Below, piece by piece: positions 28,927 through 45,943 of a stretch of 64,000 bases of DNA (position 1 is its first letter; each line of letters begins with the position of its first letter). The position numbers were made by a program, and so were the translations under genes. The notes below the pieces were generated by a model. It was given only the letters and a program-made list of their open reading frames with translations, ran no database searches and had not been told where the DNA came from. Source of the stretch: Mobiluncus curtisii subsp. curtisii ATCC 35241 (GTDB lineage: Bacteria; Actinomycetota; Actinomycetes; Actinomycetales; Actinomycetaceae); contig NZ_GL385912.1 of the NCBI RefSeq assembly GCF_000146285.1, forward strand, positions 544,076 to 608,075, written 5' to 3'.

Positions 28927-30099
28927 CTAGGCTGCGGGAGACTGCTTCGCTTTCGCCGCGAGCTGCCCGCAAGCTCCGTCAATATCCGAGCCACGGGTAT
29001 CTCGTAGCGTAGTGCTGATTCCAGCTTGCCGTAAAATCTCCATGAATTCGTCCATGACACGCGGCAGAGACGCATCCCAGATGCTCCCAGGGGTGGGATT
29101 GAGCGGAATCGGGTTCACATGCGCCCAGGTTTTACCCCGTTCATTGAGTTTATCCGCTAGTAGCTGCGCTCGCCACGGGTGGTCGTTCATGTCCCTAATC
29201 AGGGCATATTCAATAGAAACACGTCGACCGGTGGCTTGAAAATACGCATAAGCGGTGTCCAACAGTTCGTCGACTTGGTAGCGCCGGTTCATGGGTATCA
29301 GTTCGTTACGCAGCTCATCATCGGGGGCGTGCAGGGATACCGCCAAAGTGACCGGCAGCCCTTCCTGGGTCAGCTTGCGTATTCCGGGCACCAAACCGAC
29401 GGTGGAAACGACCAGGTTACGCGCCGAGATGCCAAAGCCTTGCGGGACTTCCGCAGTGAGGGTTCGAATCGTGTGCAGCAGGGATTTGTAGTTGGCGAGC
29501 GGCTCGCCCATCCCCATAAACACCAGGTTAGACAGCCGGGCGGGGCTGCCGAGTTCTCCGTCTTGGGCTGCCCTAGCTGCGAGCCGGACTTGTTCCAAGA
29601 TTTCTGCCGCCGACAGGTTTCGGGTCAAACCCAGTTGACCGGTCGCACAAAATGGACAGCCCATACCGCAACCGACCTGAGAGGATACGCACAAGGTGAC
29701 GCGCTTCGGGTAGCGCATCAGGACGGATTCCACTTGGGCGCCGTCGAACAGCCGCCACAGGGTCTTGCGGGTCCATCCCTTATCCGCGACCTGAGTCACG
29801 ACCGGGGTAATGAGCTCGGGCAACAGGTCCCGAGCACGTTCCCGGTCAGCGGGAGCGAGGTCTGTCATTTGGGCGGGGTCAGCTTCAAAACGTCCAAAAT
29901 AGTGGCGCGCCACCTGGTCAGCACGAAACGGGCGCATTCCTGCCGCGACTACCGCTTCACGACGCTGCTGAGGATCAAAGTCCGCGAAATGCTGCGGGGC
30001 GCGACCACGAGCATGAGCTCGAAAGCTGAGTTCTGCCGTAGCTCCCGCGTGCGTAGCCCCGACCGGAGGTTGGTGGTGGGGCAGAACCTGTCTTTCCAT
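28927..30099 (-). CDS. rlmN: 23S rRNA (adenine-2503-C2) methyltransferase RlmN
   Basis: 390 residues, a radical-SAM enzyme. The cluster motif [12 protein letters not shown] gives CxxxCxx[13 protein letters not shown], the conserved Cys in the C-terminal [10 protein letters not shown], and [12 protein letters not shown] are present. It methylates A2503 of 23S rRNA and also some tRNAs. The start ATG has only a weak ribosome-binding site. The N-terminal 30 residues are an unusual His/Ala-rich extension. Confidence 0.96.
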
Positions 30100-30142
30100 A
30101 AGTCTAAGTTTAACGGTTTTTCCGAGAACGTCCGGGTGGGGT

Positions 30143-31174
30143 TTAGGACAGCACCGGACCTTGTTGGGAAAAAATGGCGAATTTCAACACGATATACGCC
30201 ACCGGCGCTGCCATCAGGATGGAATCCATCCGATCCAGCAGACCGCCGTGCCCCGGCAAGAGGTGACCCATATCTTTAATGCCCAGTTCCCTCTTCATCA
30301 GTGACTCACTCAAGTCCCCGATAGTCCCCACCACAGCCATCAAAACGCCCAAGATAATCCCGTAAAACCACGGAATTCCCATCCAGAACGTGCCCGCTAC
30401 GGACACGGTGACAGCAAATAAGACCGAACCGGCAAACCCTTCCCACGTCTTGCGCGGAGAAATAGACGGTGACATATGGTGACGCCCCAGGAAACGCCCA
30501 CATAAATAGCCGCCGGTGTCTGAACCTAAAGTGACGGACAGGACAAACACCGCCGTCGCGGGAGCCCCGCACTCCACCGCCAGCAAAGCCAGGAAGGACC
30601 CCAGGAAAGGAATATACGCCACGGTCAGAGTACTGAGAGTAACGTTCTTGAGGGCATCTTCACCGCGGTAGGGACCCGCTAACTGCCACAGCAGGGCAGC
30701 CGCCATCGTCAGCAGAGTCGCGGTCAACATGGCTTCCAGACCGACTTGCCAGGCACAGATATAAATACCAATCCCGCCGATGACGACGATGGGCATCCCC
30801 AAATGCCGGTCGGTAAACCGGATGGCGTGGCGAAACTCAATCAGACATGCCACAATCGTCACCACGCACAAGGCTGCGAACAGCGGTTTCACCAGGAACA
30901 GGGTCAGTCCGTAAGCCGCCAGCAGACCCGCCCCCACCCCGGTGGCAGCCGCGAGATTACGACCACCCTTCCGAGATTTGTTTCGCGCAGACGTCACCGG
31001 TTGGGGCTTCACTTTTAGGAAGGGAACGCCCCAGCCCCGTTTACGGCGTTGCTTTGCCACGCGATTTTCGCGGCGACTGGGTCGGGTCACCGGATGCACC
31101 CCAGTTTCCGGGGTCGCCGGCGACACCGATGCTTCGGAAAATCGCGGCGGCTGGAAATTTTCGGTATCAACCAT
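30143..31174 (-). CDS. cdsA: Phosphatidate cytidylyltransferase
   Basis: 343 residues with about eight membrane helices. The family signature near the C-terminus is complete ([25 protein letters not shown]). It makes CDP-diacylglycerol, the precursor of most phospholipids. The first 80 or so residues form a hydrophilic, Arg/Lys/Pro-rich cytoplasmic extension, typical of actinobacterial CdsA. It follows frr, the standard order. Confidence 0.95.
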
Positions 31175-31211
31175 GCTCTTGCAGCCCCAGGTAATGACGG
31201 GTCGACGGCGC

Positions 31212-31769
31212 CTAAATAGTCATCAACTCTGATTCTTTGGCAGCCAGCAGCTGATCAATTTCATCAGTGAACTTTTTCGTGATGGAATCAAGTTCCTTTT
31301 CTCCGCGTTTGATTTCGTCCTCGCCGAGTTCCTTATTCTTTAGCATAGCTTCGAATTCGTCCTTGGCTTTGCGGCGCAGTGAACGCACGGACTGGCGTCC
31401 TTCCTCGGCTTTGGTCTTGGCAATCTTAACGTATTCTTTACGCCGTTCCTCCGTCAGGGCGGGCAGGACGATACGGATGGTTTTACCGTCATCAGTGGGG
31501 TTCACGCCCAAGTCTGCTTCCGCAATGGCACGAATGATGTCTTGCGAGGCTGACTTGTCAAAAGGCTGAACTATGACGGTACGAGCCTCGGGAATGTTAA
31601 AGGAAGCCAACTGCTTTAACGGGGTGGGGGCGCCATAGTAGTCGACCATAATGCCGTCAAACATAGCAGTATTGGCACGACCGGTACGAATGGAAGCGAA
31701 TTCGTCTTGGGTGGCGCTCAGTGCCTTTGTCATCATGGTCTTGGCAGATTTGAGGGTGTCTTCAATCAC
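31212..31769 (-). CDS. frr: Ribosome recycling factor
   Basis: 185 residues, the normal length. It opens at a GTG with AAAGGAG upstream. The conserved ASIRTGRANTAMFDGIMVDYYGAPTPLKQLAS and RRKAKDEFEAM are present. It releases ribosomes from mRNA after termination together with EF-G. It is in the usual pyrH-frr-cdsA order. Confidence 0.98.
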   Translation of the reverse strand: MIEDTLKSAKTMMTKALSATQDEFASIRTGRANTAMFDGIMVDYYGAPTPLKQLASFNIPEARTVIVQPFDKSASQDIIRAIAEADLGVNPTDDGKTIRIVLPALTEERRKEYVKIAKTKAEEGRQSVRSLRRKAKDEFEAMLKNKELGEDEIKRGEKELDSITKKFTDEIDQLLAAKESELMTI

Positions 31770-31830
31770 GAGTTTCTCCTTTTATTCTTTGCTTTCTCCA
31801 CAGGTTCCCCGGTGGGTTTCGTTATCTCAA

Positions 31831-32568
31831 TTACTTTTCGCTGTATAGCACAGTGCCGATTTCATCGCCCAGCAATGCCCTAGTAACGTTGCCTGGCTGG
31901 GACATGCCAAACACGCGCATCTTCAGTTTGTTTTCGGAGCACAGGGAAAAAGCAGCCGCATCTACGACCTTTAAACCGTCGCGCAGCGCTTTCTCGTAGC
32001 TAACCTCGTCAAGCTTTACAGCCTCCGGGTTCTGGCGCGGATCGTCAGTGTAGACCCCGTCCACCCCGTTCTTGCCCACCAGCAGTTCCTGACAATGTGT
32101 CTCCAGGGCACGCTGGGCACTAACGGTGTCGGTAGAGAAATACGGCATCCCCGCACCCGCTCCGAACACGACCACGCGCCCTTTTTCGAGGTGACGAATG
32201 GCACGTAACGGCACATAAGGTTCAGCGACCTGGGTCATCGTGATGGCAGACTGAACCCTGGTGCGCACCCCGGCTTGTTCCAGGAAATCTTGCAGAGCCA
32301 GGGCGTTCATCACGGTACCCAACATCCCCATGTAATCCGCTCGTGCGCGATCTAAACCGTGCTGGCTCAGCTCCGCGCCACGAAAGAAGTTTCCGCCACC
32401 AACCACAATGGCAACCTGTATTCCCTGAGTCACCGCCGCAGCGACCTGCTGAGCGATATTGGAAACGACATCGGGGTCCAACCCCACTTGCCCGCCACCA
32501 AAGACTTCACCGGAAAGTTTCATCAAAACCCGGCGTTTACCGGGGGCTACAGAGCCGTTGTCGCTCAT
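31831..32568 (-). CDS. pyrH: UMP kinase
   Basis: 245 residues. The amino-acid-kinase fold motifs are visible: [44 protein letters not shown] and [11 protein letters not shown]-like [17 protein letters not shown]. It makes UDP from UMP and is a hexamer regulated by GTP and UTP in many bacteria. A good ribosome-binding site (GGGAGAAGA) precedes the ATG. Confidence 0.98.
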
Positions 32569-32603
32569 CTATCTTCTCCCTTGAAAGACCAACATCCTTA
32601 GTC

Positions 32604-32609
32604 ATTATA
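32604..32609 (-). promoter_or_regulatory. Candidate -10 box of the pyrH promoter
   Basis: A perfect TATAAT (minus strand) 35 bp before the pyrH start, just after the tsf terminator hairpin. No clear -35 is seen, so this is moderate evidence that pyrH can be transcribed on its own. Confidence 0.5.
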
Positions 32610-32610
32610 C

Positions 32611-32648
32611 GCAAATGCCCCAAAGCCTTCATCGACCCTGGGGCATTT
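32611..32648 (-). terminator. Hairpin after tsf
   Basis: AAATGCCCC and GGGGCATTT arms in the tsf-pyrH spacer. No long T run follows, so it is probably a partial terminator or attenuator. Confidence 0.6.
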
Positions 32649-32683
32649 ACCTAGTTTAGATGGGTTTCACGAACCCTTCGGGC

Positions 32684-33523
32684 TTACTCGCCAGCCTGCA
32701 AACGCGCGAAAGCGGTGACCTTGCCCTTGGAAGCTTCCACAATCTTGCCGACCGTGGTCTTGGGATCCTTCGCAAAGGGCTGTTCCAGCAGCACGCAGTC
32801 CTTGTAAAAGCCTTTCATCCGACCTTCCACAATCTTTGCCACAGCAGCTTCCGGCTTGCCTTCAGCCTTGGTGGTTTCAGTCAGAGTGGCGCGTTCCTTT
32901 TCGACTTCCTCGGCAGGAACATCCTCGCAGCTCAGGTACTCCGGGCTGTAGGCAGCGATGTGCATCGCGACATCGTGAGCGACTTCGGCACCAGCCTTGT
33001 CGGTAGCCACCATGACGCCAACGGTCGGGGGCAAATCCTGGGAAGAACGGTGCAGGTAGACATCGACGGCTTCGCCTTCAACCTGGCGCACGTTGCCGAC
33101 TTCCAGTTTCTCACCGATAATCGCCGCAACCGCCTCAATGGTGTCCTTTACCGTGCCATCAGCAGACTTGGCAGCCAGGAGTTCCTCTACGGTAGCCGCA
33201 CCGGATGCAGCAGCAGCTTCCAGTACCTTGTCTGCCATCGCGATGAATTTGTCGGTCTTGACCACGAAGTCGGTTTCGGCGTTGACCTCAACCATGGTGC
33301 CGCGCTGACCAGCCTCGGTGTCGGTGACCTTGGCAGCAATCAGACCGGCTCCGGCGGAGCGACCTTCGCGCTTAGTCAGGGACTTCAGACCCTTGACGCG
33401 GATGATTTTCAGGGCTTCCTCACGGTCGCCGTTTGCTTCTTCCAGGGCTTTCTTAACGTCAGCTAAGCCCGCACCGGTTTCTTCGCGCAAGTCCTTGAGG
33501 TCTTGCATGTTATATTTAGCCAA
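32684..33523 (-). CDS. tsf: Elongation factor Ts
   Basis: 279 residues from a TTG at 33523: GGAGGA lies five bases upstream, and the family begins at this point (AKYNMQDLKDLREETGAGLADVKKALEEA). The open frame reaches ten codons further upstream without similarity. TDFVVKTDKF and the C-terminal KDCVLLEQPFAKD are conserved. It recycles EF-Tu by nucleotide exchange. It follows rpsB. Confidence 0.96.
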   Translation of the reverse strand: MAKYNMQDLKDLREETGAGLADVKKALEEANGDREEALKIIRVKGLKSLTKREGRSAGAGLIAAKVTDTEAGQRGTMVEVNAETDFVVKTDKFIAMADKVLEAAAASGAATVEELLAAKSADGTVKDTIEAVAAIIGEKLEVGNVRQVEGEAVDVYLHRSSQDLPPTVGVMVATDKAGAEVAHDVAMHIAAYSPEYLSCEDVPAEEVEKERATLTETTKAEGKPEAAVAKIVEGRMKGFYKDCVLLEQPFAKDPKTTVGKIVEASKGKVTAFARLQAGE

Positions 33524-33631
33524 TTTTTCCTCCAGTTTCAGAGCAAGTTTCATGCACCGGGAACTTCTATATTCCCGATAATCCTTTTGAGTGAGCGTCG
33601 GAGTGTTATCTCCCCGCTCAGCTGCAGCCGA

Positions 33632-34477
33632 TTACTCGGCTTTTGCGTCGGTAGCTTCGCTCGCAGCGGGTGCAGTTTCCGCCGGCTTATCCGCGGCAGG
33701 AGCCTTCGCGTCATCGCCTGCCAGAAGCTCGCGTTCCCACTCCGCCATCGGTTCGGCACTTTCCGGGTTCTCGCCCAGCTGTTTCTTGGAACGAGCCAGC
33801 AGACCCTCTGCACAAGCGTCAGCAATCACCTTGGTCAGCAAATCGACTGCGCGAATCGCGTCGTCGTTGCCAGGGATGCCGTAATCTACCTCGTCAGGGT
33901 CACAGTTCGTGTCCAGAATGGCAACGACCGGAATCCCAAGCTTTTGGGCTTCCGCAATCGCCAAGTGTTCCTTCTTGGTGTCAACCACCCAGATAGCCGA
34001 AGGGGTTTTCGCCATGTCGCGGATGCCGCCCAGGGTCTTGGCGAGCTTGTCCTTTTCACGGCGCATCATCAACAGTTCCTTCTTCGTCAATCCCGAAGCG
34101 GAAGTGTCCTCAAAGTCGTACTGTTCCAGTTCCTTCAGTCGCTGCAAGCGCTTGTGCACCGTCGAGAAGTTGGTCAGCATCCCGCCCAGCCAACGTTCGT
34201 TCACGAAAGGCATCCCCACGCGGGTAGCCTGTTCCTGAATGGACTCTTGAGCCTGCTTCTTGGTGCCCACGAACAGCAGCGTGCCGCCGTGCGCCACGGT
34301 TTCCTTTACGAATTCGTAAGCAATATCAATGTCAGCAATGGTTTGCTGCAAATCGAGAATGTAAATGCCGGAACGGTCGGTCAAAATAAACCGCTTCATC
34401 TTGGGGTTCCAGCGACGGGTTTGGTGCCCGAAGTGCACGCCGCTTTCCAAAAGCTGGCGCATGGTAACGACTGCCAT
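33632..34477 (-). CDS. rpsB: 30S ribosomal protein S2
   Basis: 281 residues. The start [27 protein letters not shown] is fully conserved, and [19 protein letters not shown] ends the core. The last 45 or so residues are an Ala/Glu-rich tail common in actinobacteria. AGAAGGA precedes the ATG. First gene of the rpsB-tsf-pyrH-frr-cdsA block. Confidence 0.98.
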
Positions 34478-34844
34478 GTGGCGTCCTTCTTTCAGTTATG
34501 GGACACAGCTGTCCCGGCGCACGAGCGCTCCGGAGACGTCTACGTCCAGTTTCGGTTAATGCCTGGTGTTCGCTCGCCTTCCCCACCCCATAGGGACCTG
34601 GAGGATTGCGCTCATCACGGCTACGCTGGCAGTAACACCGGCAACGCCGCGATTGCGAACACGCGAAGTCAGCTGCATGGGCAGCTGCGAGGGTTAACTT
34701 TACCAAAACTTCCTCCAGAAAAGCTAATTCGGCGCGACCTGACGCGGTTTTGTGGTTTTTCCACAAGCGGGGTCAAATCGGGGTTTTCCACAGGTCAAAG
34801 TTTGTTCTCTGGTGCGGGCGTTTCTTTCACGTCACACTGCAGTC
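34478..34844. promoter_or_regulatory. Divergent intergenic region rpsB / M23 peptidase, with two DnaA-box-like sites
   Basis: 367 bp without a gene. It holds a small hairpin near rpsB (GGGACA/TGTCCC, 34500-34515) that may belong to the rpsB leader. Two direct copies of TTTTCCACA (34757-34765 and 34784-34792) match the DnaA-box consensus TTWTNCACA; the first also sits in the palindrome TGTGG-TTTTT-CCACA. I could not place convincing -35/-10 pairs. Confidence 0.45.
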
Positions 34845-35411
34845 ATGAGAAAAGTTTTTATCGCCTTCTGCTGTTGCCTGACCTTGAGTCTGGTGGGAGG
34901 CTCTGCTTCACCTGCCGCCGGAATCACCACCGCCCCAAACTTACCTGGGGTCACCAGCCCAGCCTCGTTAACGACCTTTTCACCAGGGAAAACGCCAGGT
35001 CTGCGGGATTTCCTCTATTGGCCCACCGGTCACCCTACCGCAGTACCGCGCAAGTTTGACCCGCCCGCCCAGAAATGGTTGGCAGGGCACCGCGGTATCG
35101 ATTTGCGGGTCAGCCCCGGTGAGACTGTCTTTGCCGCGACTGACGCGACGGTACTCTATGCCGGTAATCTGGCGGGACGTCCCGTGATTTCACTCGAAGA
35201 CACGACGGGGCGGCGCTATACCTACGAGCCGGTAGAACCCGCGGTCGCAGTCGGGGATGAAGTGACTCGCGGTCAGGCCATTGGGACGGCACTGGGAGGG
35301 CACTGTTCCCCTGGGGACTGTCTACATTTCGGGGTCAAGGACGGCCCAGACGGCTACGTGGATCCGCTGCGTCTGTTGGGGGGAAGGATTCGCCTGTACC
35401 CAGTGAGCTAG
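34845..35411 (+). CDS. Secreted M23 family peptidase
   Basis: 188 residues from the ATG at 34845, where a signal peptide begins (RKVFIAFCCCLTLSLVGGSASPAAG). The mature part is a single M23/LytM domain: GHRGIDLRV carries the first His and Asp of the zinc site, and GDCLHFGVK carries the last His. M23 enzymes cut peptidoglycan cross-bridges. In this short form the position before LHFG is Cys rather than His, as seen in many actinobacterial homologues of reduced activity. The ribosome-binding site is weak. The gene converges on the lipoprotein gene. Confidence 0.85.
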   Translation: MRKVFIAFCCCLTLSLVGGSASPAAGITTAPNLPGVTSPASLTTFSPGKTPGLRDFLYWPTGHPTAVPRKFDPPAQKWLAGHRGIDLRVSPGETVFAATDATVLYAGNLAGRPVISLEDTTGRRYTYEPVEPAVAVGDEVTRGQAIGTALGGHCSPGDCLHFGVKDGPDGYVDPLRLLGGRIRLYPVS

Positions 35412-35443
35412 GTGAGTCGGGGAACACGCCGCGGCGCTACCGC

Positions 35444-36175
35444 TCACTCACCAGTATCGGAATACTTGGCGGGAGCTTTATAGATGCCGGTAATCACGTT
35501 GTTTCCGTGAATATACTCGACCCGGTACTGGGATACGGTGTTCGAAGGGGGATCGTAGTTCAGGACTTCGCCCTTCTCAGAGCGCGCGATAATCGGCGGT
35601 TCCGCATTGCGAGCCACAACCCAAAAAATGGATTGATTCTGTTTGGACTTTCCCGCGGAGACATCGAGGATTTCCGTGCGTGGCACCCCGGTCTCTACGT
35701 GAGAATACTTCCGGGTGAAGTCAACGGACCACTGCGACATCTCCTGACACTTCGTGCACGCATCGGTGTAAACCTGGTTTACGAAATGCGCATCTTTCGA
35801 CGCAAAGCTGTAATACATCGCATAGGTAAAGTACTTCACCACGGTGGCAGCACCGTCCACGGAGAACTCGTGGAAGAATTTCGGCTCATCAAACGGCGCC
35901 ACTTTCATCATCTGATCTGCAGGAATCTCTTTGAGTTCAGCGGGGGAAGGGTTATCTTTCACCGTCGCGGTATAACTCGGCGCTGGCTCTCCTGAAACCG
36001 GGTCTTTAGTCGTGTTCGGAGCCGCAGGCTCGACCAAGGGAATATCCGCGGTCATCATCTCGCGCGCAGTTCTCTCGGATCCGGAAGCAGTAACCGCCGT
36101 ACCGCATCCCGTTAACACTGCGGCGGAGCACAGCATCATCAGCGATGCTTGCAAAATCCGCAGTTTTCCGACCAT
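35444..36175 (-). CDS. DUF6318 family lipoprotein
   Basis: 243 residues with a lipoprotein signal peptide (lipobox LTGC, Cys about 24). After a Thr/Pro-rich spacer the domain contains FHEFSVDGAATVVKYFTYAMYYSFASKDAHFVNQVYTDACTKCQEM, with a CxxC, and matches my memory of the actinobacterial DUF6318 family. It resides on the outer face of the membrane; the function is unknown. GGGAGGAG precedes the ATG. Confidence 0.8.
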   Translation of the reverse strand: MVGKLRILQASLMMLCSAAVLTGCGTAVTASGSERTAREMMTADIPLVEPAAPNTTKDPVSGEPAPSYTATVKDNPSPAELKEIPADQMMKVAPFDEPKFFHEFSVDGAATVVKYFTYAMYYSFASKDAHFVNQVYTDACTKCQEMSQWSVDFTRKYSHVETGVPRTEILDVSAGKSKQNQSIFWVVARNAEPPIIARSEKGEVLNYDPPSNTVSQYRVEYIHGNNVITGIYKAPAKYSDTGE

Positions 36176-36527
36176 GACGCTCCTCCCGAGACACCATTAC
36201 CTTGCTTTTCATGATTCATTGTATGTGGTTTAGGAGGAAATTCATAGAGTCAATCCAGCTTTTTCTCAGTTTTGTAAAGACATTCCAGGGACACTATCTT
36301 CCCAGCTCACAGGCTTGCTTTTTTCTAGCCTTTAGAAATTTTTTGGGGAAACATTTAAATTAGGACTTTAGGCCCGCAGATGCGCCTGCAGATACACTGT
36401 CTCTTTCCGGTCACTACGTGCCTTCTCAGTAAATCCCCTTGCTCAAGCCCCACCTTGAGACACAGTCTCCCCAAATAGATTCACAAGATTGATAACTTTC
36501 GACGCCCCATCGAGACATAATCTGGGA
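36176..36527. other. Intergenic region holding the left copy of the xerC-end repeat
   Basis: 352 bp. The first part contains the upstream region of the DUF6318 gene (a TACAAT resembling a -10 box lies about 50 bp upstream). The 35-bp repeat at 36363-36397 follows, and then about 130 bp with no recognisable gene up to the lipoprotein stop. Confidence 0.6.
36363..36397. repeat. Direct repeat of the xerC 3' end, left copy (att-like)
   Basis: 35 bases identical, except for one, to 38208-38242, in the same orientation. The right copy contains the last codons and stop of xerC. This left copy has no gene body, so it appears to be a duplication created when the 1.8-kb cassette entered. Confidence 0.8.
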
Positions 36528-37052
36528 CTAATCGTCCTTCTCCGCAGCGTCAGCGGAGTCATTGATTCTAAGTACCCCCGTTTTCGGGCAAGTTATTGTC
36601 TCTTGATTTACTACATCCCGGCACGCTTTCAAGACATCCACAGCTCCTCCGAATCGAACCCGATCTCCTATTGCCAGAACACTGCCCCAAGGAAGCTTCA
36701 CGCTCTGACCCGACAGGGTGGTACCGTAAGGAAAAGACACCGGCAACAATTCATTGTCAGAGCTATCCCTCAACATGACGCATCCTGCGTCGTCCTGTTC
36801 CAGAGTACCTTGAAATAGCTGATCGTAACCTCCCGGATATTCAAAGGCATTTGCTACCAGCCTCATTCCGTCCTGCACAGTTTCCACATAGCAATGCTCG
36901 ATATCAGTCGGCAAAGAATCGCCAGTGACAGCGGCTTGCGGTTTACTTGACATAGAATTATCGATTTCAGGCTGCGTTGCTACGCTCTGACATCCAGCCA
37001 AGTAAAGTGCAGCTGCAAATATAAGCAAAAGAATCAGTAAATTTTTATTCAT
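36528..37052 (-). CDS. Small lipoprotein of unknown function in the protease cassette
   Basis: 174 residues with a lipoprotein signal (KNLLILLLIFAAALYLAGC, Cys about 21) and a polar mature part with the possible compact-barrel segment WGSVLAIGDRVRFGGAVDV. Four Cys residues in the mature part (as in EHCY, AGCVM, KACRD, TCPK) could form disulfides. I do not recognise the family. Its start overlaps the serine-protease stop by 4 bp, so the two are co-translated; it may be a partner or inhibitor of the protease. Base composition is AT-rich compared with the core genes around. Confidence 0.8.
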   Translation of the reverse strand: MNKNLLILLLIFAAALYLAGCQSVATQPEIDNSMSSKPQAAVTGDSLPTDIEHCYVETVQDGMRLVANAFEYPGGYDQLFQGTLEQDDAGCVMLRDSSDNELLPVSFPYGTTLSGQSVKLPWGSVLAIGDRVRFGGAVDVLKACRDVVNQETITCPKTGVLRINDSADAAEKDD

Positions 37053-38140
37053 TTCTTTTTTACTCTAACCCCCAGCACAGATTCGGCAATTTGAATAGGC
37101 GTAAACACGTCCCTCTCTACACTTCCGAATTTAATATGCCCACTGTGGACGCCATAAGCAATAGAGGATGAAAACCAAGGTCCGCCACTGTCTCCACCCC
37201 TCGCCTTTCTTCCACTCATAGCCGTAAGATTACAAATTCCATTAGAAGAGCATGTTCTGATATCCCAAACAGTTTCATCACAGAATCTCGTCCCCGAGCC
37301 TCTGCCATTTAGGCACAGATTTTGCCCCACTGTGGGATACGCGGTCTGTGTGACATTTACCAAATGACTCGGAAGGGTGTAGAACTGCGGAGCGGTCCAG
37401 GCGGAAGTCGAGAACCAGGATACGTCTCCATATTGACCTTGATGTTTACCCCTCAGCTTTAATGATACGCCACCGTAGGACTGCGGTTCATTTGCGCAAT
37501 GACCAGCCGTTAATAAACCATTAGGATATCCATTTGAAGATACACTAAATGCCGTTGTGCAGCTTGTGAGATATCCGCCACCATACAGAGCATCATACCC
37601 CGATTCTGTGGAATCCGTATAGTCGTATTGTATCTTGAATGGGGATTTCACGTTGGCAGATAATTTTTTATCTTTGAGAAGATTAGAAACCTTATTTATT
37701 GAAGAAACCGGAACTTCAATATGGATAACAGCATTGGGCACATCTGTATATGCAGATACCGAGCCACCAAGTTCCTCCCGAAGATTATAAAAGACCTCCT
37801 CCTGTTTGCCCATAATCTCATCTTCAGAGAAACCCACACCTCCACTAACTCTCAAATTTGGAATCAAATTTGCCATTTTCAGAACCTTGTCCGGAACATC
37901 ATTCTTAAAATGAATCTCTGCTTTGCAACCACCGATACGAGACCACGAATAATTGTCAGAGTAATTTAGCCTAGAAAAGTTATCTACTTTATTTACCTCA
38001 GCTTGCCACTCTAATGCAATACCGGCATCATTTACACAAGGGCTGGTAAGCTCCTCAGCTGTGGAACTTGGAACTCCCCACAAGGATAATCCAATAAGAA
38101 TTACTGGAATACACGCCTGGTACCTCAATTTAGCGAACAT
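37049..38140 (-). CDS. Secreted S1 family serine protease (streptogrisin/alpha-lytic type)
   Basis: 363 residues: a signal peptide (about 1-28), a pro-region (about 30-165), and a chymotrypsin-fold domain. The catalytic His is in LLTAGHC, the Asp is probably in YGDVSWF, and the Ser is in ARGGDSGGPWF. Six or more Cys fit disulfide pairing of the secreted domain. A pro-region followed by this domain is the pattern of alpha-lytic protease and streptogrisins. AAAGGGGA precedes the ATG. It forms an operon with the lipoprotein inside the repeat-bounded cassette; its DNA is AT-rich, suggesting transfer. Confidence 0.9.
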   Translation of the reverse strand: MFAKLRYQACIPVILIGLSLWGVPSSTAEELTSPCVNDAGIALEWQAEVNKVDNFSRLNYSDNYSWSRIGGCKAEIHFKNDVPDKVLKMANLIPNLRVSGGVGFSEDEIMGKQEEVFYNLREELGGSVSAYTDVPNAVIHIEVPVSSINKVSNLLKDKKLSANVKSPFKIQYDYTDSTESGYDALYGGGYLTSCTTAFSVSSNGYPNGLLTAGHCANEPQSYGGVSLKLRGKHQGQYGDVSWFSTSAWTAPQFYTLPSHLVNVTQTAYPTVGQNLCLNGRGSGTRFCDETVWDIRTCSSNGICNLTAMSGRKARGGDSGGPWFSSSIAYGVHSGHIKFGSVERDVFTPIQIAESVLGVRVKKK

Positions 38141-38207
38141 AGCATTCCCCTTTGAAAACTAAATCGACCGTGAGATTAAATTATCTCTCAGCTTTCGGAT
38201 AATCAAG

Positions 38208-38242
38208 GGACTTTAGGCCCGCGGATGCGCCTGCAGATACAC
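38208..38242. repeat. Direct repeat of the xerC 3' end, right copy (att-like)
   Basis: Partner of 36363-36397 (34 of 35 bases identical). It covers the last ten codons and the stop of xerC, which stays intact, as with elements that integrate at the 3' end of a gene. Confidence 0.8.
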
Positions 38243-39184
38243 CGCACGGAGCTTATCCATCGAGAGGTGTGTATAGCGCTGGGTCGTGGCTAAGCTGGCG
38301 TGACCCAGAATCTCCTGGACACTGCGCAAATCCGCCCCTCCATCCAACAGGTGCGTGGCAGCGGTGTGACGTAGCCCGTGCGGTCCCAAGTCCGGTACCC
38401 CTGCCTGCGCCGTCAGTCGATGCAGCATTCCGCGGACGATCCGCGTATCCAGCATTCCGCCTTTTGCCCCTAAAAATACCCGGTTCAGCGCAGGCTTTTC
38501 CGGATTCACCAGGGCGGGGCGTCCCTTTTCCAGGTACTCTTCTAGCGCCAGACCCGCAGGAATGCCGTAGGGCACGACTCGCTGTTTGTCGCCCTTTCCC
38601 GTCACCCGGACAGTGCGTTGGCTTTTATTAATGTTGCCCAGTTCTAACCCGGTCAGCTCGCTGACCCGAATGCCGGTGGCATAAAGCAGCTCTAAGGCTG
38701 CCCAGTCACGCAGTTTCACCGGATTGGGAGCGGTAGAGGCTTCAGGATAAGCGGCGGCACGTGCCGTTTCCAAGAGGTGTGCCGCGTCCGTGGCAGACAA
38801 AACCGTGGGCAGGGCGTTATCCGGCCGCGAAGCCCGCAAGTTTTGCCCAGCATCGCCCGGGACTATGCCGCGGACCTGCGCCCACGAGGCAAAAGTGCGA
38901 AAGGACGCCACTCGACGAGCCAGCGTGGCGCGGCTCATCCCCGCGCGGCTCATTGCTCCCAGCCACGCCCGAATCCGGGCAGGATTAGCCAAATCTGCAC
39001 GCAGTTGCTGCGCCGCGGGACCATCCCCGGAATCGGAGTCCACCAGGAAAGTCATTAATTCTCGCAAATCCGTGAGATACGCCCGCACGGTTTGCGGGGA
39101 AAGCCCCCGGTTTACGCTCAGCCATTGCCCAAAATCTGCGGTAATTTCTCGGGCAAAGACCGCTGCTGGGTTATTTTCACTCAC
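38213..39184 (-). CDS. xerC: Tyrosine recombinase XerC
   Basis: 323 residues with a SAM-like core-binding domain (about 10-100) and a catalytic domain. Active residues are visible: Arg in ELLYATGIRVSELTGL, Lys in TGKGDKQRVVP, HGLRHTAATHLL (His-x-x-Arg), His in LGHASL and Tyr in TTQRYTHLS. It resolves chromosome dimers at dif. It lies after dprA as usual. The AT-rich protease cassette adjoins its 3' end, which is duplicated on the far side of the cassette. Confidence 0.96.
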   Translation of the reverse strand: MSENNPAAVFAREITADFGQWLSVNRGLSPQTVRAYLTDLRELMTFLVDSDSGDGPAAQQLRADLANPARIRAWLGAMSRAGMSRATLARRVASFRTFASWAQVRGIVPGDAGQNLRASRPDNALPTVLSATDAAHLLETARAAAYPEASTAPNPVKLRDWAALELLYATGIRVSELTGLELGNINKSQRTVRVTGKGDKQRVVPYGIPAGLALEEYLEKGRPALVNPEKPALNRVFLGAKGGMLDTRIVRGMLHRLTAQAGVPDLGPHGLRHTAATHLLDGGADLRSVQEILGHASLATTQRYTHLSMDKLRAVYLQAHPRA

Positions 39185-39193
39185 CTCTTGATT

Positions 39194-40582
39194 CTACCGG
39201 GCGGTTGCTTTCGACCTCAGGCGATATCTCCCTTTTCGGGTTTCAACCTTGCCATCCAGTTCCATCAACCCCAGCTCACTTTGCACCGTACGAGTACCCA
39301 AACCGGCGGCACGCGACACCTGCTCCAAGGACTTCCAAGCCGTTTTCGATAAAACATCAATGACTTTTACGCCGTCACTGCTCAATCCAGCAAAAAGCGA
39401 GGGCGCCGGGATTTGTCCGGTCGAGTCGCGCTGAGGCGAAGCCGATACCACCCCGGAGATGCCCTTTCCTGCTGATCCCCCGACTCCAAACAAACTTTGT
39501 CCCGCCACATTCAGCGGAAACATGAGTTCCATGATTTCCGCCGCGTTCGTCACTAGGGCAGCGCCTTCCCGAATCAGTCGATGGCATCCGACGGAGGCGG
39601 TGGAAGTGACCGCTCCGGGCACCGCGGCAACCTGACGTCCCTGTTCCGCACCATGGTTGGCGGTGGACATCGCCCCGGAACGCTCCCCCGCCTCAACCAC
39701 CACTACAACTTGAGACAAGGCTGAGATGATGCGGTTACGAGTCAAAAACAGGTGTTTAGCAGGTCGCTGGGAGGGCGGGGCTTCGCTGACAATCGCCCCC
39801 GTTTGTTGGATTTGGGAAAACAGTTGCGCATTCATGGCAGGATAGAGATTCCCCAGCCCTCCAGCCTGCACGCTGATGGTCTTACCGCTCGAAGCGAGAG
39901 CCCCTCGATGCGCAGCAGCGTCAATCCCATAAGCTCCCCCACTGATGACCCAGATGCCACACTCTGACAGTTCATACGCGATTTCTTGGGCTATATCGGT
40001 TCCATAGTGAGTCGCGCAACGTGCCCCGACCAGCGCCACTGCACCCTCAGATGCCAGCGCTTGCAAAGCCTGGGGATTACCCCGCACCCACAACGCCAGT
40101 GGCGCCACAGCGCCCAGACTATCGACTATCCCGGGCCAAGCCGCGTCGCCAGGCACCACCAGTGCGCCGCCGTCCCGGCTCAGCAGCTGATATTCCATCT
40201 CCAGGTTTAGCTCACGCAGTCGCAAAGCCCAGCCTTCGATTTGCGCCACCGACGCGGGCAACTGAACCGGTTGAAACACAGTGCGAATCATCATGTCGTC
40301 AATTTCCGGCAGCTTTGCCGCCAGAAATTTCACGCGTTCCAGGGCTTCCCTGACCCCAAAATGCTCGATGACCTGACCCACGACAGGCTCTCCCGGTTGG
40401 GCAATAGCGGTCCATGCCGCACGAGCCTGGCGATCTTCTGGGCTGAGCGGCTTCGCGACAGGGTCTCCACGCGACGGTAACGACAACATTTCGTTCGAGT
40501 GTGACAGTTCTTCCAAGACCACATCCGGCGGCGACTTCGGGGCATTCAAGGGCACGTCCTCAGTTAGGCTTAACGTTTTCAT
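39194..40582 (-). CDS. dprA: DNA-processing protein DprA
   Basis: 462 residues, longer than usual owing to about 80 extra N-terminal residues. The Rossmann-type core has ALVGARCATHYGTDIA, GGAYGIDAAAHRGAL, NRIISALSQVVVVVEAGERSG and VPGAVTSTASVGCHRLIREGAAL. A C-terminal winged helix follows (SLEQVSRAAGLGTRTVQSELGLMELDGKVETRKGRYRL). DprA loads RecA on incoming single-stranded DNA during transformation. It is co-oriented with comM and yraN, the usual group. Confidence 0.96.
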   Translation of the reverse strand: MKTLSLTEDVPLNAPKSPPDVVLEELSHSNEMLSLPSRGDPVAKPLSPEDRQARAAWTAIAQPGEPVVGQVIEHFGVREALERVKFLAAKLPEIDDMMIRTVFQPVQLPASVAQIEGWALRLRELNLEMEYQLLSRDGGALVVPGDAAWPGIVDSLGAVAPLALWVRGNPQALQALASEGAVALVGARCATHYGTDIAQEIAYELSECGIWVISGGAYGIDAAAHRGALASSGKTISVQAGGLGNLYPAMNAQLFSQIQQTGAIVSEAPPSQRPAKHLFLTRNRIISALSQVVVVVEAGERSGAMSTANHGAEQGRQVAAVPGAVTSTASVGCHRLIREGAALVTNAAEIMELMFPLNVAGQSLFGVGGSAGKGISGVVSASPQRDSTGQIPAPSLFAGLSSDGVKVIDVLSKTAWKSLEQVSRAAGLGTRTVQSELGLMELDGKVETRKGRYRLRSKATAR

Positions 40583-40594
40583 AACTTCCCCCCT

Positions 40595-42160
40595 TTAGGG
40601 CAGACTGAATCCTTCGTTTTGGCGCCGTAGCGTCATGGCAGTTCCCAGTTCGGGCAACCCCGGAACAGTTTTTCCGCTCAAATCGGCAACGGTCCACGCC
40701 AGGCGCAAGACCCTTTGAGCTCCCCGCATGGACAGGCGCCCCTGTTCCACCACGGTGTCGACCCGCCCAATCAGCTCCCGAGTGAAACCACCCTCGGGCT
40801 GTCGCAAAAATGGTCCCGGAATTTCCCGATTCAAATCCCATCCTCGCCCCTTCCACCGTTCCCGCTGCACGTCACGAGCACGTTGCACACGGGCGGCGAC
40901 CACCGTGGTGGTATCAGCGGGTTTCGCTCCCGCGAGCGAGCCTCGCCCCGGAGATTCCACCTGGATTTGGATGTCCATCCGGTCCAACAGCGGTCCGCTC
41001 AATCGTTCCAGATATCGTTTGCGTGAATAGGGTGTGCAGGTACAGGTGGCACGCCGACTACCGGCGTTACCGCAGGGGCAGGGATTAGCCGCCATAATCA
41101 GTTGGAATCGAGCCGGATATTGGGCTGCACCCGCCGCCCGATGCAGCGTAATCTCCCCGTTTTCCAACGGTTCTCGGAGGGAATCCAAGACCCGCGCCCC
41201 GAACTCGGGAGCCTCGTCCAAGAACAACACTCCCCGGTGGGCCAGGGAGGCGGCGCCGGGACGCGGCACTCCCGAGCCTCCTCCCACCATCGCTGCCAGC
41301 GTCGCCGAATGATGCGGGGCTTGAAAGGGAGGCTGACGAATTAATCCGTCCAGCGGAGACAACGTTCCGGCGAGGGAATGCAAGGCGGTGACTTCTACGG
41401 ACTGTTCCAGTTCCAGGGTCGGGAGGATTCCAGGCAGCCGCGATGCCAGCATGGTTTTTCCCGAGCCCGGAGTGCCAATCATCAACAGATGATGACCTCC
41501 CGCGGCCGCCACTTCCATCGCCTGACAGGCAGCGGCTTGTCCGCGAATATCCGAAAAATCCCCGCCCAGACTGCAGGCAGGAGCCGGGGTGGTGTCCCCC
41601 TCCGCTGCCTCCGCCGGTTCTTCCGGCGGGGGCAGCGGCATCATCAAGTCTCCCCCCAATAACTCGATGACTTGCCCCAGGTGATGCACCCCGACCACGT
41701 CCACCCCAGGAACCAGGGAAGCTTCAGCAAGGTTCGCTTGTGGCACCAAAATCTTTGTTTTTCCGGTCTTCATGGCGCCGATGACACTGGGTAAAATACC
41801 CCGGATTCCAATCACACGACCATCCAACCCCAGCTCTCCCAACATGATGCATTGCCCAGCTCGGCTGTGGGAAATGACCCCCATCGCAGCTAAAACGCTG
41901 ACTGCCATCGCCAGGTCGTAGCCAGAGCCGGTCTTTGGCAGTGATGCCGGGGAGAGATTCAACACAATCCGCGTTCCCGGCCATTCATACAGGCAGCTGG
42001 TCACCGCAGCGCGCACCCGGTCTTTGGCCTCGCGCACCGCCGTATCCGGCAGCCCGACCAAACTGTAGGCGGTCATTCCATCGGAGATATGCGCCTCGAC
42101 CCGCACCGGACGTGCTTGCATCCCTACCAAGCAAATCGACCAAGCAAATCCTGAACTCAT
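40595..42160 (-). CDS. YifB/ComM family Mg-chelatase-like AAA ATPase
   Basis: 521 residues. The N-terminal ChlI-type domain (VEAHISDGMTAYSLVGLPDTAVREAKDRVRAAV) is followed by the AAA core with Walker A (IGTPGSGKTMLASRLPGILP), Walker B (GVLFLDEAPEF), and the family FQLIMAANPCPCGNAGS. ComM is a branch-migration helicase that helps to integrate transforming DNA. Its start overlaps the yraN stop by 4 bp. Confidence 0.95.
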   Translation of the reverse strand: MSSGFAWSICLVGMQARPVRVEAHISDGMTAYSLVGLPDTAVREAKDRVRAAVTSCLYEWPGTRIVLNLSPASLPKTGSGYDLAMAVSVLAAMGVISHSRAGQCIMLGELGLDGRVIGIRGILPSVIGAMKTGKTKILVPQANLAEASLVPGVDVVGVHHLGQVIELLGGDLMMPLPPPEEPAEAAEGDTTPAPACSLGGDFSDIRGQAAACQAMEVAAAGGHHLLMIGTPGSGKTMLASRLPGILPTLELEQSVEVTALHSLAGTLSPLDGLIRQPPFQAPHHSATLAAMVGGGSGVPRPGAASLAHRGVLFLDEAPEFGARVLDSLREPLENGEITLHRAAGAAQYPARFQLIMAANPCPCGNAGSRRATCTCTPYSRKRYLERLSGPLLDRMDIQIQVESPGRGSLAGAKPADTTTVVAARVQRARDVQRERWKGRGWDLNREIPGPFLRQPEGGFTRELIGRVDTVVEQGRLSMRGAQRVLRLAWTVADLSGKTVPGLPELGTAMTLRRQNEGFSLP

Positions 42161-42648
42161 TTCAACCCCTGGAGATGTTTCACCACGGGTTCACCGTGTC
42201 CGTCCCAATCCACGCTGCATAAATCCAGGCTGACCGCTCGATGGACTGGGACAATATCCCGTTGCGCCAACCATGCCCCCATAACCCGGCGCATCCGCGC
42301 CAGCTTTTTCATGGTGATGGCCTCAATAGGCAACCCGTGCCGATGATTGGAACGAGTCTTAACCTCCACGAACCCCAGAACTCCCTCGGGGCTGAGGGCG
42401 ACTATGTCGACTTCCCCAGCACGACATCGCCAATTCCGATCCACAATTACATATCCCGCAGCTTTGAGCGACTCTGCAGCCACTTCTTCTCCAGCCATGC
42501 CCAGCTGACGATTGTGTAAGTTGTTCCGTGGCGGTGAGACAATTTGCCCCACTGTCCGCAGTGCGGAGTCACCGACTGTATCGTGGCATCGAGGGTTCGT
42601 CTCGGTACAGGCTTTATGACTGGTTTCAACGGTATTTGCGTAGCTCAT
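42157..42648 (-). CDS. YraN family (UPF0102) nuclease-like protein
   Basis: 163 residues from the ATG at 42648; a start at 42693 is possible and would add 15 residues. After 45 unrelated residues comes the PD-(D/E)xK-like core: LGMAGEEVAAESLKAAGYVIVDRNWRCRAGEVDIVALSPEGVLGFVEVKTR. It is found next to comM and rnhB in many bacteria; its DNA-related function is not proven. Confidence 0.9.
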   Translation of the reverse strand: MSYANTVETSHKACTETNPRCHDTVGDSALRTVGQIVSPPRNNLHNRQLGMAGEEVAAESLKAAGYVIVDRNWRCRAGEVDIVALSPEGVLGFVEVKTRSNHRHGLPIEAITMKKLARMRRVMGAWLAQRDIVPVHRAVSLDLCSVDWDGHGEPVVKHLQGLK

Positions 42649-42700
42649 GAACTCAGCCTTGCGCGCGCGACCGCCCTGACCAAGCCCAAACATTTTTACC

Positions 42701-42723
42701 TGTGGAAAACCGACTTATCCACA
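42701..42723. promoter_or_regulatory. Pair of DnaA-box-like sites upstream of yraN
   Basis: TGTGGAAAA (inverted TTTTCCACA) and TTATCCACA lie five bases apart, facing each other. The second is the perfect strong DnaA box. They precede the yraN-comM-dprA-xerC run. Confidence 0.5.
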
Positions 42724-42787
42724 GCCCTATAAATGGCGAAAATCCGCCAATCAACCGGTTTTAACGAATTTATTGACGAAATCGAAG

Positions 42788-43099
42788 CTAGGGAATTTCG
42801 ATTTCAGGCTTGGTGAGTTCCTCAACGTTGACGTCTTTGAAAGTAAGCACCCGCACGTTTTGCACGAAGCGCGAGGAGCGATAGACGTCCCAAACCCAGG
42901 CGTCCTCCAAAGTAATCTCAAAGAATACGTCCCCTCCGGCATTATTGTGCGTGGTGACGTCTACCTTGTTCGCCAGATAAAAGCGCCGGTCGGTTTCCAC
43001 CACATAGCTAAACAGGGAAATCACATCGCGATATTCTCGGTATAAATCCAGTTCCAGCCCATTTTCATAGGACTCAATATCGTCGTTGTTGACCATCAC
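42788..43099 (-). CDS. DUF2469 family protein
   Basis: 103 residues. The opening (NNDDIESYENGLELDLYREYRDVISLFSYVVETDRRFYLAN) is the strongly conserved actinobacterial DUF2469 sequence. Unknown function. It lies between rnhB and yraN, its standard place. Confidence 0.93.
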   Translation of the reverse strand: MMVNNDDIESYENGLELDLYREYRDVISLFSYVVETDRRFYLANKVDVTTHNNAGGDVFFEITLEDAWVWDVYRSSRFVQNVRVLTFKDVNVEELTKPEIEIP

Positions 43100-43122
43100 G
43101 TAACCTTTCGTATTCCTCTACC

Positions 43123-43890
43123 CTACCGGAGCTTCCAAGTTTTGCGATGCCAGACACTCGCACCCAATTCAGCCAGACCTGCTTTGTGAGCAGGAGTCCC
43201 GTATCCGACGTTCCGGGCCCAACCATATCCGGGGTCATGCAAGCTGCGCATGAAGGCATCCCGATACACTTTAGCCAGTACCGCGGCGGCAGCGATTACA
43301 GCTGCTTTCCCATCCCCTTTCACCAGGGTTTCCACGCTGACTTCGGGGGAACTCACCAGGTTTCCCGCCTCGGCAAACAGGTCAGGTTGCCGCGGTGAGG
43401 CGAGATAGTCGAAGTTTCCGTCCAGCAGCAGTCTCTGGGGCAGGTGTCCCCTGGCATCCAGCTCGTTTAAAGCACGCCATCCAGCCAGACGCAACGCGGG
43501 CATAATCCCTAATTCGTCGATTTCCGTATTCGAAGCCTGACCGATAGCAAAATCCCTGACCCACGCCTGAATGGGGTCTTGCAGCGCTACCCGACGCCGG
43601 GCGGTGAGCTGCTTAGAATCGTTCAATCCGACAGGAAAGCCCTGGGGGAAATCCGGATTGTCTAGGCTGCGTTGATCCAGCACTGCCACCCCCACGCACA
43701 CCGGACCTGCTAACGCGCCACGACCGACCTCGTCCATCCCGCCTATCAACGGTAGACGTCCTTCGTGACCGTCGCTCCCGCACTGTGCCAACTCTGCCAG
43801 AGCCGCAGTCTCCCAAGATAAATCGACCACCGCGGTAGCCTCATTGCGTGGGGGGCGGCGCTTCGTCGGCTTCGGAACTGAATTCATCAT
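43123..43890 (-). CDS. rnhB: Ribonuclease HII
   Basis: 255 residues. The catalytic motif GGMDEVGRGALAGPV (Asp-Glu) and the later GDGKAAVIAAAAVLAKVYRD (Lys and Asp) are complete. It removes ribonucleotides from DNA. The ORF overlaps the end of lepB by 50 bp; a start at the second Met or further inside is possible, because the first 40 residues are unlike the family. Confidence 0.95.
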   Translation of the reverse strand: MMNSVPKPTKRRPPRNEATAVVDLSWETAALAELAQCGSDGHEGRLPLIGGMDEVGRGALAGPVCVGVAVLDQRSLDNPDFPQGFPVGLNDSKQLTARRRVALQDPIQAWVRDFAIGQASNTEIDELGIMPALRLAGWRALNELDARGHLPQRLLLDGNFDYLASPRQPDLFAEAGNLVSSPEVSVETLVKGDGKAAVIAAAAVLAKVYRDAFMRSLHDPGYGWARNVGYGTPAHKAGLAELGASVWHRKTWKLR

Positions 43891-45175
43891 TCGGGGTGGC
43901 AGGCTTGGGAATGTTATAAAAAGCGCAGCTGGGAGTGATGAATTTCATACGTTCGACCGGCCAAACGACGACGAAAGCGCGACCCACCACGTTCGATTCA
44001 GAGACAAATCCATGCGAAGGTTTGTCTTGGTGCCAGCGGGAATCAGCAGAATGAGGTCGATTGTCCCCCATGACCCACAGCGAATTTTTCGGCACGACAA
44101 CAGAAAATTCTATATCTGAAGAGACTCCGGTTCGGGGGATATAGTCCTCATCAATAGCTTTGCCGTTAATGGTCATCAGACCATCCTCGTCGCAGCAAGA
44201 GACATCATCGCCAGGGATTCCAATCACGCGTTTGATCAGATAACCTTGAGAGTCTTCCGGCAGCAGACCCACGAAAATCCCGAAATTCTTCACCTTGGTC
44301 GCAATCTGGAACGGAGTACGGTCAGGAGGGCGTTTACGCAGCTGCTCCGCGGCAGTTTGGCTCCATCCTTCCACGTCTTCAAAGACCACAATATCGCCAC
44401 GGTTAATGTCTCCGTGCCGGGCAGAGAATTTGTTGACCAGCACAGAATCGTTAATCATCAAGGTCTTTTCCATAGACTGCGAGGGAATGTAAAACGGCTG
44501 CAACAGGAACAGTCGTACCAGCGAGCTGATTGCCAGAGCCGTAATTACCACCGCGATAAACTCAAAATACCAGGGCAGGTCCAGAGCTAAATGTGGACGC
44601 TCGAGACCGTCGAGATTGCCCCGCACCCCCGGTGGCAAGGCATTCATGCCCCGGAATCCAGGCATCCCGGCGCCGCGTCCCGACTTGAACTCGCCGTCCT
44701 CATCATCAAGTTTGAAGTCGGTTTCGTCCTCCGCCAAGGCGCCATCTTTCCCTGAAACGTCAGGGATTTCCTCATTATCAAACATCATACCTGGAAAAGG
44801 TATAGAACCGTACGGAGGGTAAGGCATTCCCGGATACGGTTCCATTCCCAGGGGCGAGAAACCCGGCGGCATTTGCGTTGGCGGCATCCCATTGGGGTCC
44901 ATACCAGGAAATTCCGCCCCATCTGGAAATGCGGGCTGCGGGGGGTAGCCTCCCGGAAAAGCCTCCGGAGGAAAAGGCATTCTCATGCCGTCTGGCGCGT
45001 ATGGCGCTCCTTCACCGGGCATTGGTCCACCGGGGAAACCTTCATAGCCAGGAGGAAAAGACTCTGACATGGTCCCAGCTCCAGCAAATTGCGGGTTCGT
45101 GTTGAAGCCATCCGGAGACGTGCCCGAGGACGGGGCGTCTCGATTGGCGTTCTCAGGCTGCTGGGGCTTCGTCAT
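43841..45175 (-). CDS. lepB: Signal peptidase I with a long low-complexity N-terminus
   Basis: 444 residues, against about 200-290 for usual actinobacterial forms. The catalytic part begins with a membrane helix (FEFIAVVITALAISSLVRLFLL, about 205-227), then FYIPSQSMEKTL with the catalytic Ser, GDIVVFEDVEGW, LIKRVIGIPGDDV with the catalytic Lys, and MGDNRPHSADSRWH. The first 200 residues are Pro/Gly/Met-rich (GFPGGPMPGEGAPY, FPGMDPNGMPP) and cytoplasmic, similar in style to the low-complexity part of the 18770-21109 protein. It lies between rplS and rnhB as usual. Confidence 0.94.
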   Translation of the reverse strand: MTKPQQPENANRDAPSSGTSPDGFNTNPQFAGAGTMSESFPPGYEGFPGGPMPGEGAPYAPDGMRMPFPPEAFPGGYPPQPAFPDGAEFPGMDPNGMPPTQMPPGFSPLGMEPYPGMPYPPYGSIPFPGMMFDNEEIPDVSGKDGALAEDETDFKLDDEDGEFKSGRGAGMPGFRGMNALPPGVRGNLDGLERPHLALDLPWYFEFIAVVITALAISSLVRLFLLQPFYIPSQSMEKTLMINDSVLVNKFSARHGDINRGDIVVFEDVEGWSQTAAEQLRKRPPDRTPFQIATKVKNFGIFVGLLPEDSQGYLIKRVIGIPGDDVSCCDEDGLMTINGKAIDEDYIPRTGVSSDIEFSVVVPKNSLWVMGDNRPHSADSRWHQDKPSHGFVSESNVVGRAFVVVWPVERMKFITPSCAFYNIPKPATPNDEFSSEADEAPPPTQ

Positions 45176-45199
45176 AGTAAAAAAGAATAGCCTAAAAGG

Positions 45200-45240
45200 C
45201 TAAAGGAAACCCAAACATTTCCGGTTTGGGCTTCCTTTAG
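45200..45240 (-). terminator. Terminator after rplS
   Basis: Strong hairpin: CTAAAGGAA-CCCAAAC arms with a short loop and the matching GGTTTGGG-TTCCTTTAG. In the minus-strand direction a pyrimidine/T-rich stretch follows, ending about 25 bp before the lepB start. Confidence 0.82.
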
Positions 45241-45342
45241 GATGAATTTTTAGGGCAGCACTCGGCTTGTCTTTCGACTGTCCGGCTGATCTCACGAATC
45301 TCGTATTATCCCAGCGCGGCGACTGCCACAAATCATTGCAAG

Positions 45343-45690
45343 TTACCGCTTTTCGGCAACCTTAGCAGCCTTGCCGTGGCGATTACGCAGGTAGTACAGC
45401 TTGGCACGACGCACATCACCGCGGGTCACGACCTCAATCTTGTCCACAGTCGGGGCGTGCAGCGGGAAGGTACGTTCCACACCGGTTCCGAACGACAGCT
45501 TTCGGACAGTGAAAGTTTCGCCCACTCCACCGCCGTGGCGAGCGATAACTACGCCCTGAAAGATCTGAATACGGGAACGGTTCCCTTCGATAACCTTTAC
45601 GTGAACCTTTACGGTGTCTCCCGGACGAAACTCCGGAGTATCCTCACGCATGGCGGCTTTGCCAATTTCCTCAACCAGAGGCTTCTGCAT
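45343..45690 (-). CDS. rplS: 50S ribosomal protein L19
   Basis: 115 residues, normal length. [82 protein letters not shown] is conserved throughout. AAGGAGA precedes the ATG. The unusual structured leader at 45708-45792 lies just upstream. Confidence 0.98.
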
Positions 45691-45707
45691 TATTTCTCCT
45701 TGACGCT

Positions 45708-45792
45708 CCTGCCACAGGTCAAAAACGTCTCACTGCGGGCACCTTCAGTGCCGATGGTGTTTCACTTCGCTATCGGGTCCCCCTGTGGCAGG
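45708..45792 (-). ncRNA. Structured leader upstream of rplS (candidate autoregulatory element)
   Basis: An 11-bp perfect inverted repeat (CCTGCCACAGG / CCTGTGGCAGG) encloses two further hairpins: GGCAC/GTGCC and GATGGTG/CGCTATC (with G-U pairs). Together they could fold as a three-way junction of 85 bases, ending 17 bases before the rplS start codon. Ribosomal-protein genes often have such leaders. I did not compute a fold. Confidence 0.6.
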
Positions 45793-45921
45793 TTGCCCGC
45801 GAAGCCGTACCATTTTGCCACAAATCAGGACAGAAACGCCACTTTTGCCCTTCCGGACGCTACGCAGCGCTTCTCAATGTGCTTATCCGTCGCTGGTTTG
45901 CGCATCACACGCCCTCGCGAC

Positions 45922-45940
45922 ACGTCCGACGATCGGACGT
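45922..45940 (-). terminator. Hairpin after trmD-GNAT gene
   Basis: ACGTCCGA/TCGGACGT with a 3-base loop directly behind the stop codon. No T run follows, so it may be a weak terminator or an RNA-end stabiliser. Confidence 0.5.
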
Positions 45941-45943
45941 CTC

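Follow-up and report, generated by a model that had tools for sequence, protein, structure and literature searches.

The window analysed here is a stretch of 64,000 nucleotides from Mobiluncus curtisii subsp. curtisii ATCC 35241. Between xerC and a DUF6318 lipoprotein gene, it contains an insert with genes for a secreted serine protease and a second lipoprotein, bordered on both sides by the 3' end of xerC in direct orientation (Table 1).

Table 1 Features of the xerC locus. Positions are counted from the first nucleotide of the window.
Feature	Position	Strand	Remarks
DUF6318 lipoprotein gene, outside insert	35444..36175	-	follows xerC natively in all four Mobiluncus species examined
Distal copy of xerC 3'-end block (att-like)	36363..36397	-	HLRA-stop
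Non-coding insert end, 130 bp, 3' of lipoprotein gene	36398..36527	.	no relatives or RNA family found; motif clustering not significant
Lipoprotein gene, 174 aa, lipobox LAGC	36528..37052	-	weak model, predicted as an OB-like beta barrel
Secreted S1 serine protease (alpha-lytic/streptogrisin type), 363 aa	37049..38140	-	pro-region and catalytic domain; triad H214, D239, S318
AT-rich leader of the protease gene, 67 bp, forming the xerC-side insert end	38141..38207	.	Shine-Dalgarno-like AAAGGGGA
xerC-side block copy, genuine xerC end plus 5 nt	38208..38242	-	G at 38207 also agrees with empty site
xerC, intact, 323 aa, target gene	38213..39184	-	

The two copies of the block are 35 nt long, differ at one position and start 1845 bp apart; each covers the last ten codons of xerC, the stop and 5 nt. 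A scan of the whole genome (2.15 Mb, up to three mismatches) recovered the block at these two places only, with a chance expectation for such matches of about 4e-13, and the repeat pattern had no hit in the species-level genome collection, from which the window's own genome had been left out. With just two copies genome-wide, a dispersed intergenic element is rejected. The xerC-side copy retains the conserved HPRA ending; the proline codon lost from the distal copy is what is expected of a copy that is no longer under coding constraint. A direct repeat of the target gene end is thus present at both borders, and the gene itself is intact.

The copies enclose the protease and lipoprotein genes and no others. 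The two genes overlap by 4 bp (ATGA), and no integrase, excisionase or other mobility gene was found within the insert. Its G+C content is 45.2%, against 55.4% for the window, and GC3 of its two genes is 38.7% and 45.7%, against 61-69% in five neighbour genes. In all these respects the locus is as a preliminary description had presented it: a 35-bp xerC-end stretch recurring 1.85 kb away in the same orientation with one change, and between the copies only an AT-rich secreted protease gene and an overlapping lipoprotein gene, with no integrase. GTCTC/GAGAC motifs cluster in the left non-coding insert end and were considered as integrase arm sites; the cluster is striking by eye, but not unusual statistically, clusters as strong being found in 18% and 5% of window segments when any 5-mer or 6-mer is allowed. 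A structured RNA or terminator at the insert ends was likewise rejected (folding z 0.08, no Rfam match).

Family searches assign the protease to the trypsin family, and both profile and predicted-fold comparisons relate it to the alpha-lytic and streptogrisin proteases (2pfe, 1hpg, 2alp and relatives). Its catalytic triad is invariant across 17 sequences, and triad and fold together place it in this S1 family, with which it shares the pro-region and the catalytic domain; it differs in being paired with a downstream lipoprotein gene. The lipoprotein matched no named family. Structure prediction gave a weak model (mean pLDDT 63), with low-scoring similarity to OB-type barrels, and among solved structures none was convincingly related to it in sequence. 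Neither insert protein matched the phage and defence family libraries. From the families represented, the cargo operon probably acts at or outside the cell surface.

Such a protease is followed directly by a lipoprotein gene also in M. mulieris, M. porci and other genomes of the family, and the same pair occurs in Microbacterium, Nocardioides, Nocardiopsis, Leucobacter, a Clavibacter plasmid, Luteimonas and an Ardenticatenia assembly. Protease and lipoprotein thus form a recurring gene arrangement. Across Actinobacteria and in a few other phyla, the two genes often overlap by a few bp or lie almost side by side (window 36528-38140; L062, L063, L065, L162, L178, L186, L189, L192, L196).

The locus was compared in four Mobiluncus genomes, one per species: the window's species, its sister species (G001), M. 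mulieris and M. porci. XerC of the window's species and that of G001 are 94% identical. The G001 alignment consists of two blocks, window 30005-36397 and 38207-45997, which overlap by 36 nt, corresponding to one single copy of the repeat; the flanks match the window at 82-87% identity on both sides. G001 therefore has the empty site: its sequence runs through the locus uninterrupted, the block occurs once, and native sequence lies on either side. The DUF6318 lipoprotein gene follows xerC in G001, M. porci and M. mulieris, and no homologues of the insert genes were found at the xerC locus of these three. With this gene order shared by all three, absence of the insert is taken as ancestral. The insertion is a clean one, and its gain in the lineage of the window's species is the simplest reading. 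The preliminary description had proposed integration into the xerC 3' end with the gene kept whole, to be checked by looking for an empty xerC end in relatives; it would have been given up if insert-free relatives lacked a single clean copy, or if the repeat were widespread. The G001 site, which is insert-free and holds a single clean copy, and the absence of the insert from two more species support the proposal, and the repeat is not dispersed.

The insertion can be read directly from this comparison; for its agent we infer site-specific recombination of the tyrosine-integrase type, by which the 1.8-kb insert would have entered the xerC 3' end. The insert would now be an integrase-less remnant, or else one integrated in trans, and is most likely static today; we give this whole reading about an even chance, and it is our best explanation of the locus. 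In this reading, a circular DNA would have brought its own version of the last ~35 bp of xerC and crossed over with the chromosomal one, so that each end of the insert has the block once and xerC stays intact. The missing integrase could mean either that a larger element has lost its integration genes and left this remnant, or that the enzyme was supplied in trans. Tyrosine integrases usually leave a long identity block in direct orientation, enter the 3' end of a conserved gene and restore that gene; the precise insertion at a gene 3' end, the long block of identity and the whole gene are accordingly read as the trace of such an enzyme. The differing base composition, the empty G001 site, the ancestral absence of the insert, the direct repeats and the proline codon lost from the distal copy alone were also counted for integration. 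Counted against it were the insert's lack of an integrase, the lack of any other element at the xerC end in 115 genomes, and the lack of a phage, plasmid or viral carrier.

A different origin of the repeat, as a target-site duplication of host sequence made when a transposase or the repair of a staggered break brought in the insert, appears unlikely. It would suit the resemblance of the two copies, which agree with each other at 34 of 35 positions and with the G001 site at 32 and 33 of 35, but any insertion after the species split would fit these figures too. Target duplications of transposons are usually far shorter than 35 bp. The insert carries no transposase gene, and no terminal inverted repeats were found at its ends, where the score was below the shuffled mean; this last result speaks against a transposon.

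DNA downstream of xerC was scanned in 116 genomes of the family (76 + 40; mostly ~20 kb, less at contig ends), each genome's own xerC end serving as the query for a second copy. A second copy was present in the window's genome only (35/38 positions); the best match elsewhere reached 27 positions, and shuffled sequence up to 26. No other element or second copy was found at the xerC 3' end in the 115 other genomes within the stretch fetched, so that the other cargo which the preliminary description had proposed looking for at this position was not encountered. Over the stretches fetched from these genomes, the xerC end is not a hotspot.

Viral contigs, phages and plasmids yielded no copy of the block, no attP was found, and the insert DNA had no relatives in phages. 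Plasmids gave a single match, 71 bases long (query 1918-1988), which lies within the xerC-side block and xerC, outside the insert. One match from the phage collection, MT837442.1 (L161, labelled Bacteriophage sp.), was rejected as a phage source; its ORFs look chromosomal (MreB-, penicillin-binding-protein- and Ndk-like), and we take it to be a fragment of an actinobacterial chromosome. In the papers searched, no earlier report of the xerC 3' end as an attachment site was found. A minimal mobile cassette of 1.8 kb, in which the protease-lipoprotein operon with its att-like ends would be moved to the xerC 3' end as a new target by an integrase acting in trans, is graded as quite unlikely.

Five matches to the tyrosine-recombinase family were obtained in the window's genome: XerC, XerD, an intact protein of 439 aa (C1:754313) and two short remnants. 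The intact non-Xer recombinase and the two remnants, together with the near identity of both end copies, could be quoted for an insert that is mobile at present, through an integrase elsewhere in the genome or one brought by a visiting element. We consider present mobility very unlikely: the gene at C1:754313 lies near a tRNA-Trp gene and has a syntenic counterpart in G001, where the insert is absent, and no second copy of the cassette was found in the window's genome. The evidence links none of the genome's tyrosine recombinases to the xerC site.

XerC/D itself had been named as a possible mover in the preliminary description; it would act as it does on elements that integrate at dif. Apart from the location beside xerC nothing argues for this, and it is hardly credible. 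A probable dif site, CAATCCGATAATATATATTATGTCATTT, was located via its palindromic core. Each of the four Mobiluncus genomes has it once, M. mulieris with two base changes; in the window's genome it is at C1:230998 (L205). It lies away from xerC, and agrees with the repeat block at 12/28 positions, a level reached by half of random window segments. No dif-like site was found at the insert borders. Since the probable dif is elsewhere and unlike the repeat, action of XerC/D at dif-like sites is improbable.

AT-rich protease genes also occur at several unrelated Mobiluncus loci, as islets placed singly between housekeeping genes, several of them broken by a frameshift or a stop. In the window's genome they are found at C1:443802 (two reading frames) and C1:1670166 (a stop); M. 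mulieris has four and M. porci one. No long flanking repeat was found at these seven islets. Two of them could be compared with G001, in which one is replaced by 59 bp and the other by an aldehyde-dehydrogenase-like gene; a duplicated gene end is seen in neither case. As further insertions of the xerC-site element these islets were rejected, with no flanking repeats and no shared non-coding sequence. Their lack of repeats and of duplicated gene ends indicates that the route taken at xerC is not the general route of the protease cargo; it was also counted against integration, as pointing to cargo without a common site-specific route.

The same islets bear on the main rival, a serious one, capture of a short-homology circle without a recombinase: a circular (or tandem) fragment with ~35 bp of xerC sequence would have entered by one RecA-dependent or illegitimate crossover, which would leave the flanking repeat. 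Arrival of the genus's other protease islets by routes that leave no repeats is in keeping with such capture, as are the insert's lack of an integrase and the 115 genomes with no other element at the xerC site. On the other hand, 35 bp is short for homologous recombination, and homology limited to exactly the 3' end of a gene is what the circle of an integrative element carries. We regard capture as possible, although less probable than integration by a tyrosine integrase.

With integration by a tyrosine integrase as the preferred reading, the insert may be compared with known systems. Cis-mobilizable elements (CIMEs) have lost their integration and transfer genes and kept attL and attR (PMC5704250). 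The xerC insert is like them in that a gene end stands on either side as attL/attR-like copies, with neither integration nor transfer genes inside; it differs in that no integrase-bearing relative with the same att site was found in the 115 other family genomes, phages, plasmids or viral contigs, in holding two cargo genes only, and in that its mobilisation is hypothetical. The ssrA islands of Dehalococcoides have direct repeats of a gene 3' end as borders, and 15 of them are without an integration module (PMC3146451). Integrase-less islands bounded in this way correspond to the xerC insert, but they are arrayed next to integrase-bearing islands at one common hotspot, with a recombinase of the serine type, whereas at xerC there is one insert and no hotspot. 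IMEX, which use XerC/D and dif, similarly have no integrase of their own, and the insert lies near xerC; its target, however, is not dif and has no similarity to dif. The insert may thus be filed as similar to CIMEs and integrase-less ssrA islands, not as a proven member, because no integrase specific for the xerC end was found. Its features suggest a relic left by one site-specific integration, not a new kind of mobile system.

The value of the locus lies in a clean single insertion at a gene end that carries nothing but a surface-active gene pair. Should the insert prove mobile, few passenger units of this type would be smaller, and it would illustrate how secreted proteases are acquired by a vaginal bacterium. 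As a relic, it would be a tidy but unremarkable case of an integrated element worn down to its cargo.

Some minor observations were made at the other islets. The G001 gene that replaces one of them, presumably an aldehyde dehydrogenase as named from its sequence (L159 7539-9062), corresponds in position to a broken protease islet in the window's species (L059 7659-8797); the flanks are serine-acetyltransferase-like and undecaprenyl-diphosphate-synthase-like genes. The second islet is at L060 7632-9363, and the others are in L061-L065. In M. mulieris, a dispersed intergenic motif around TCATGAGGTGCCA occurs in both orientations (L061, L062, L063, L064).
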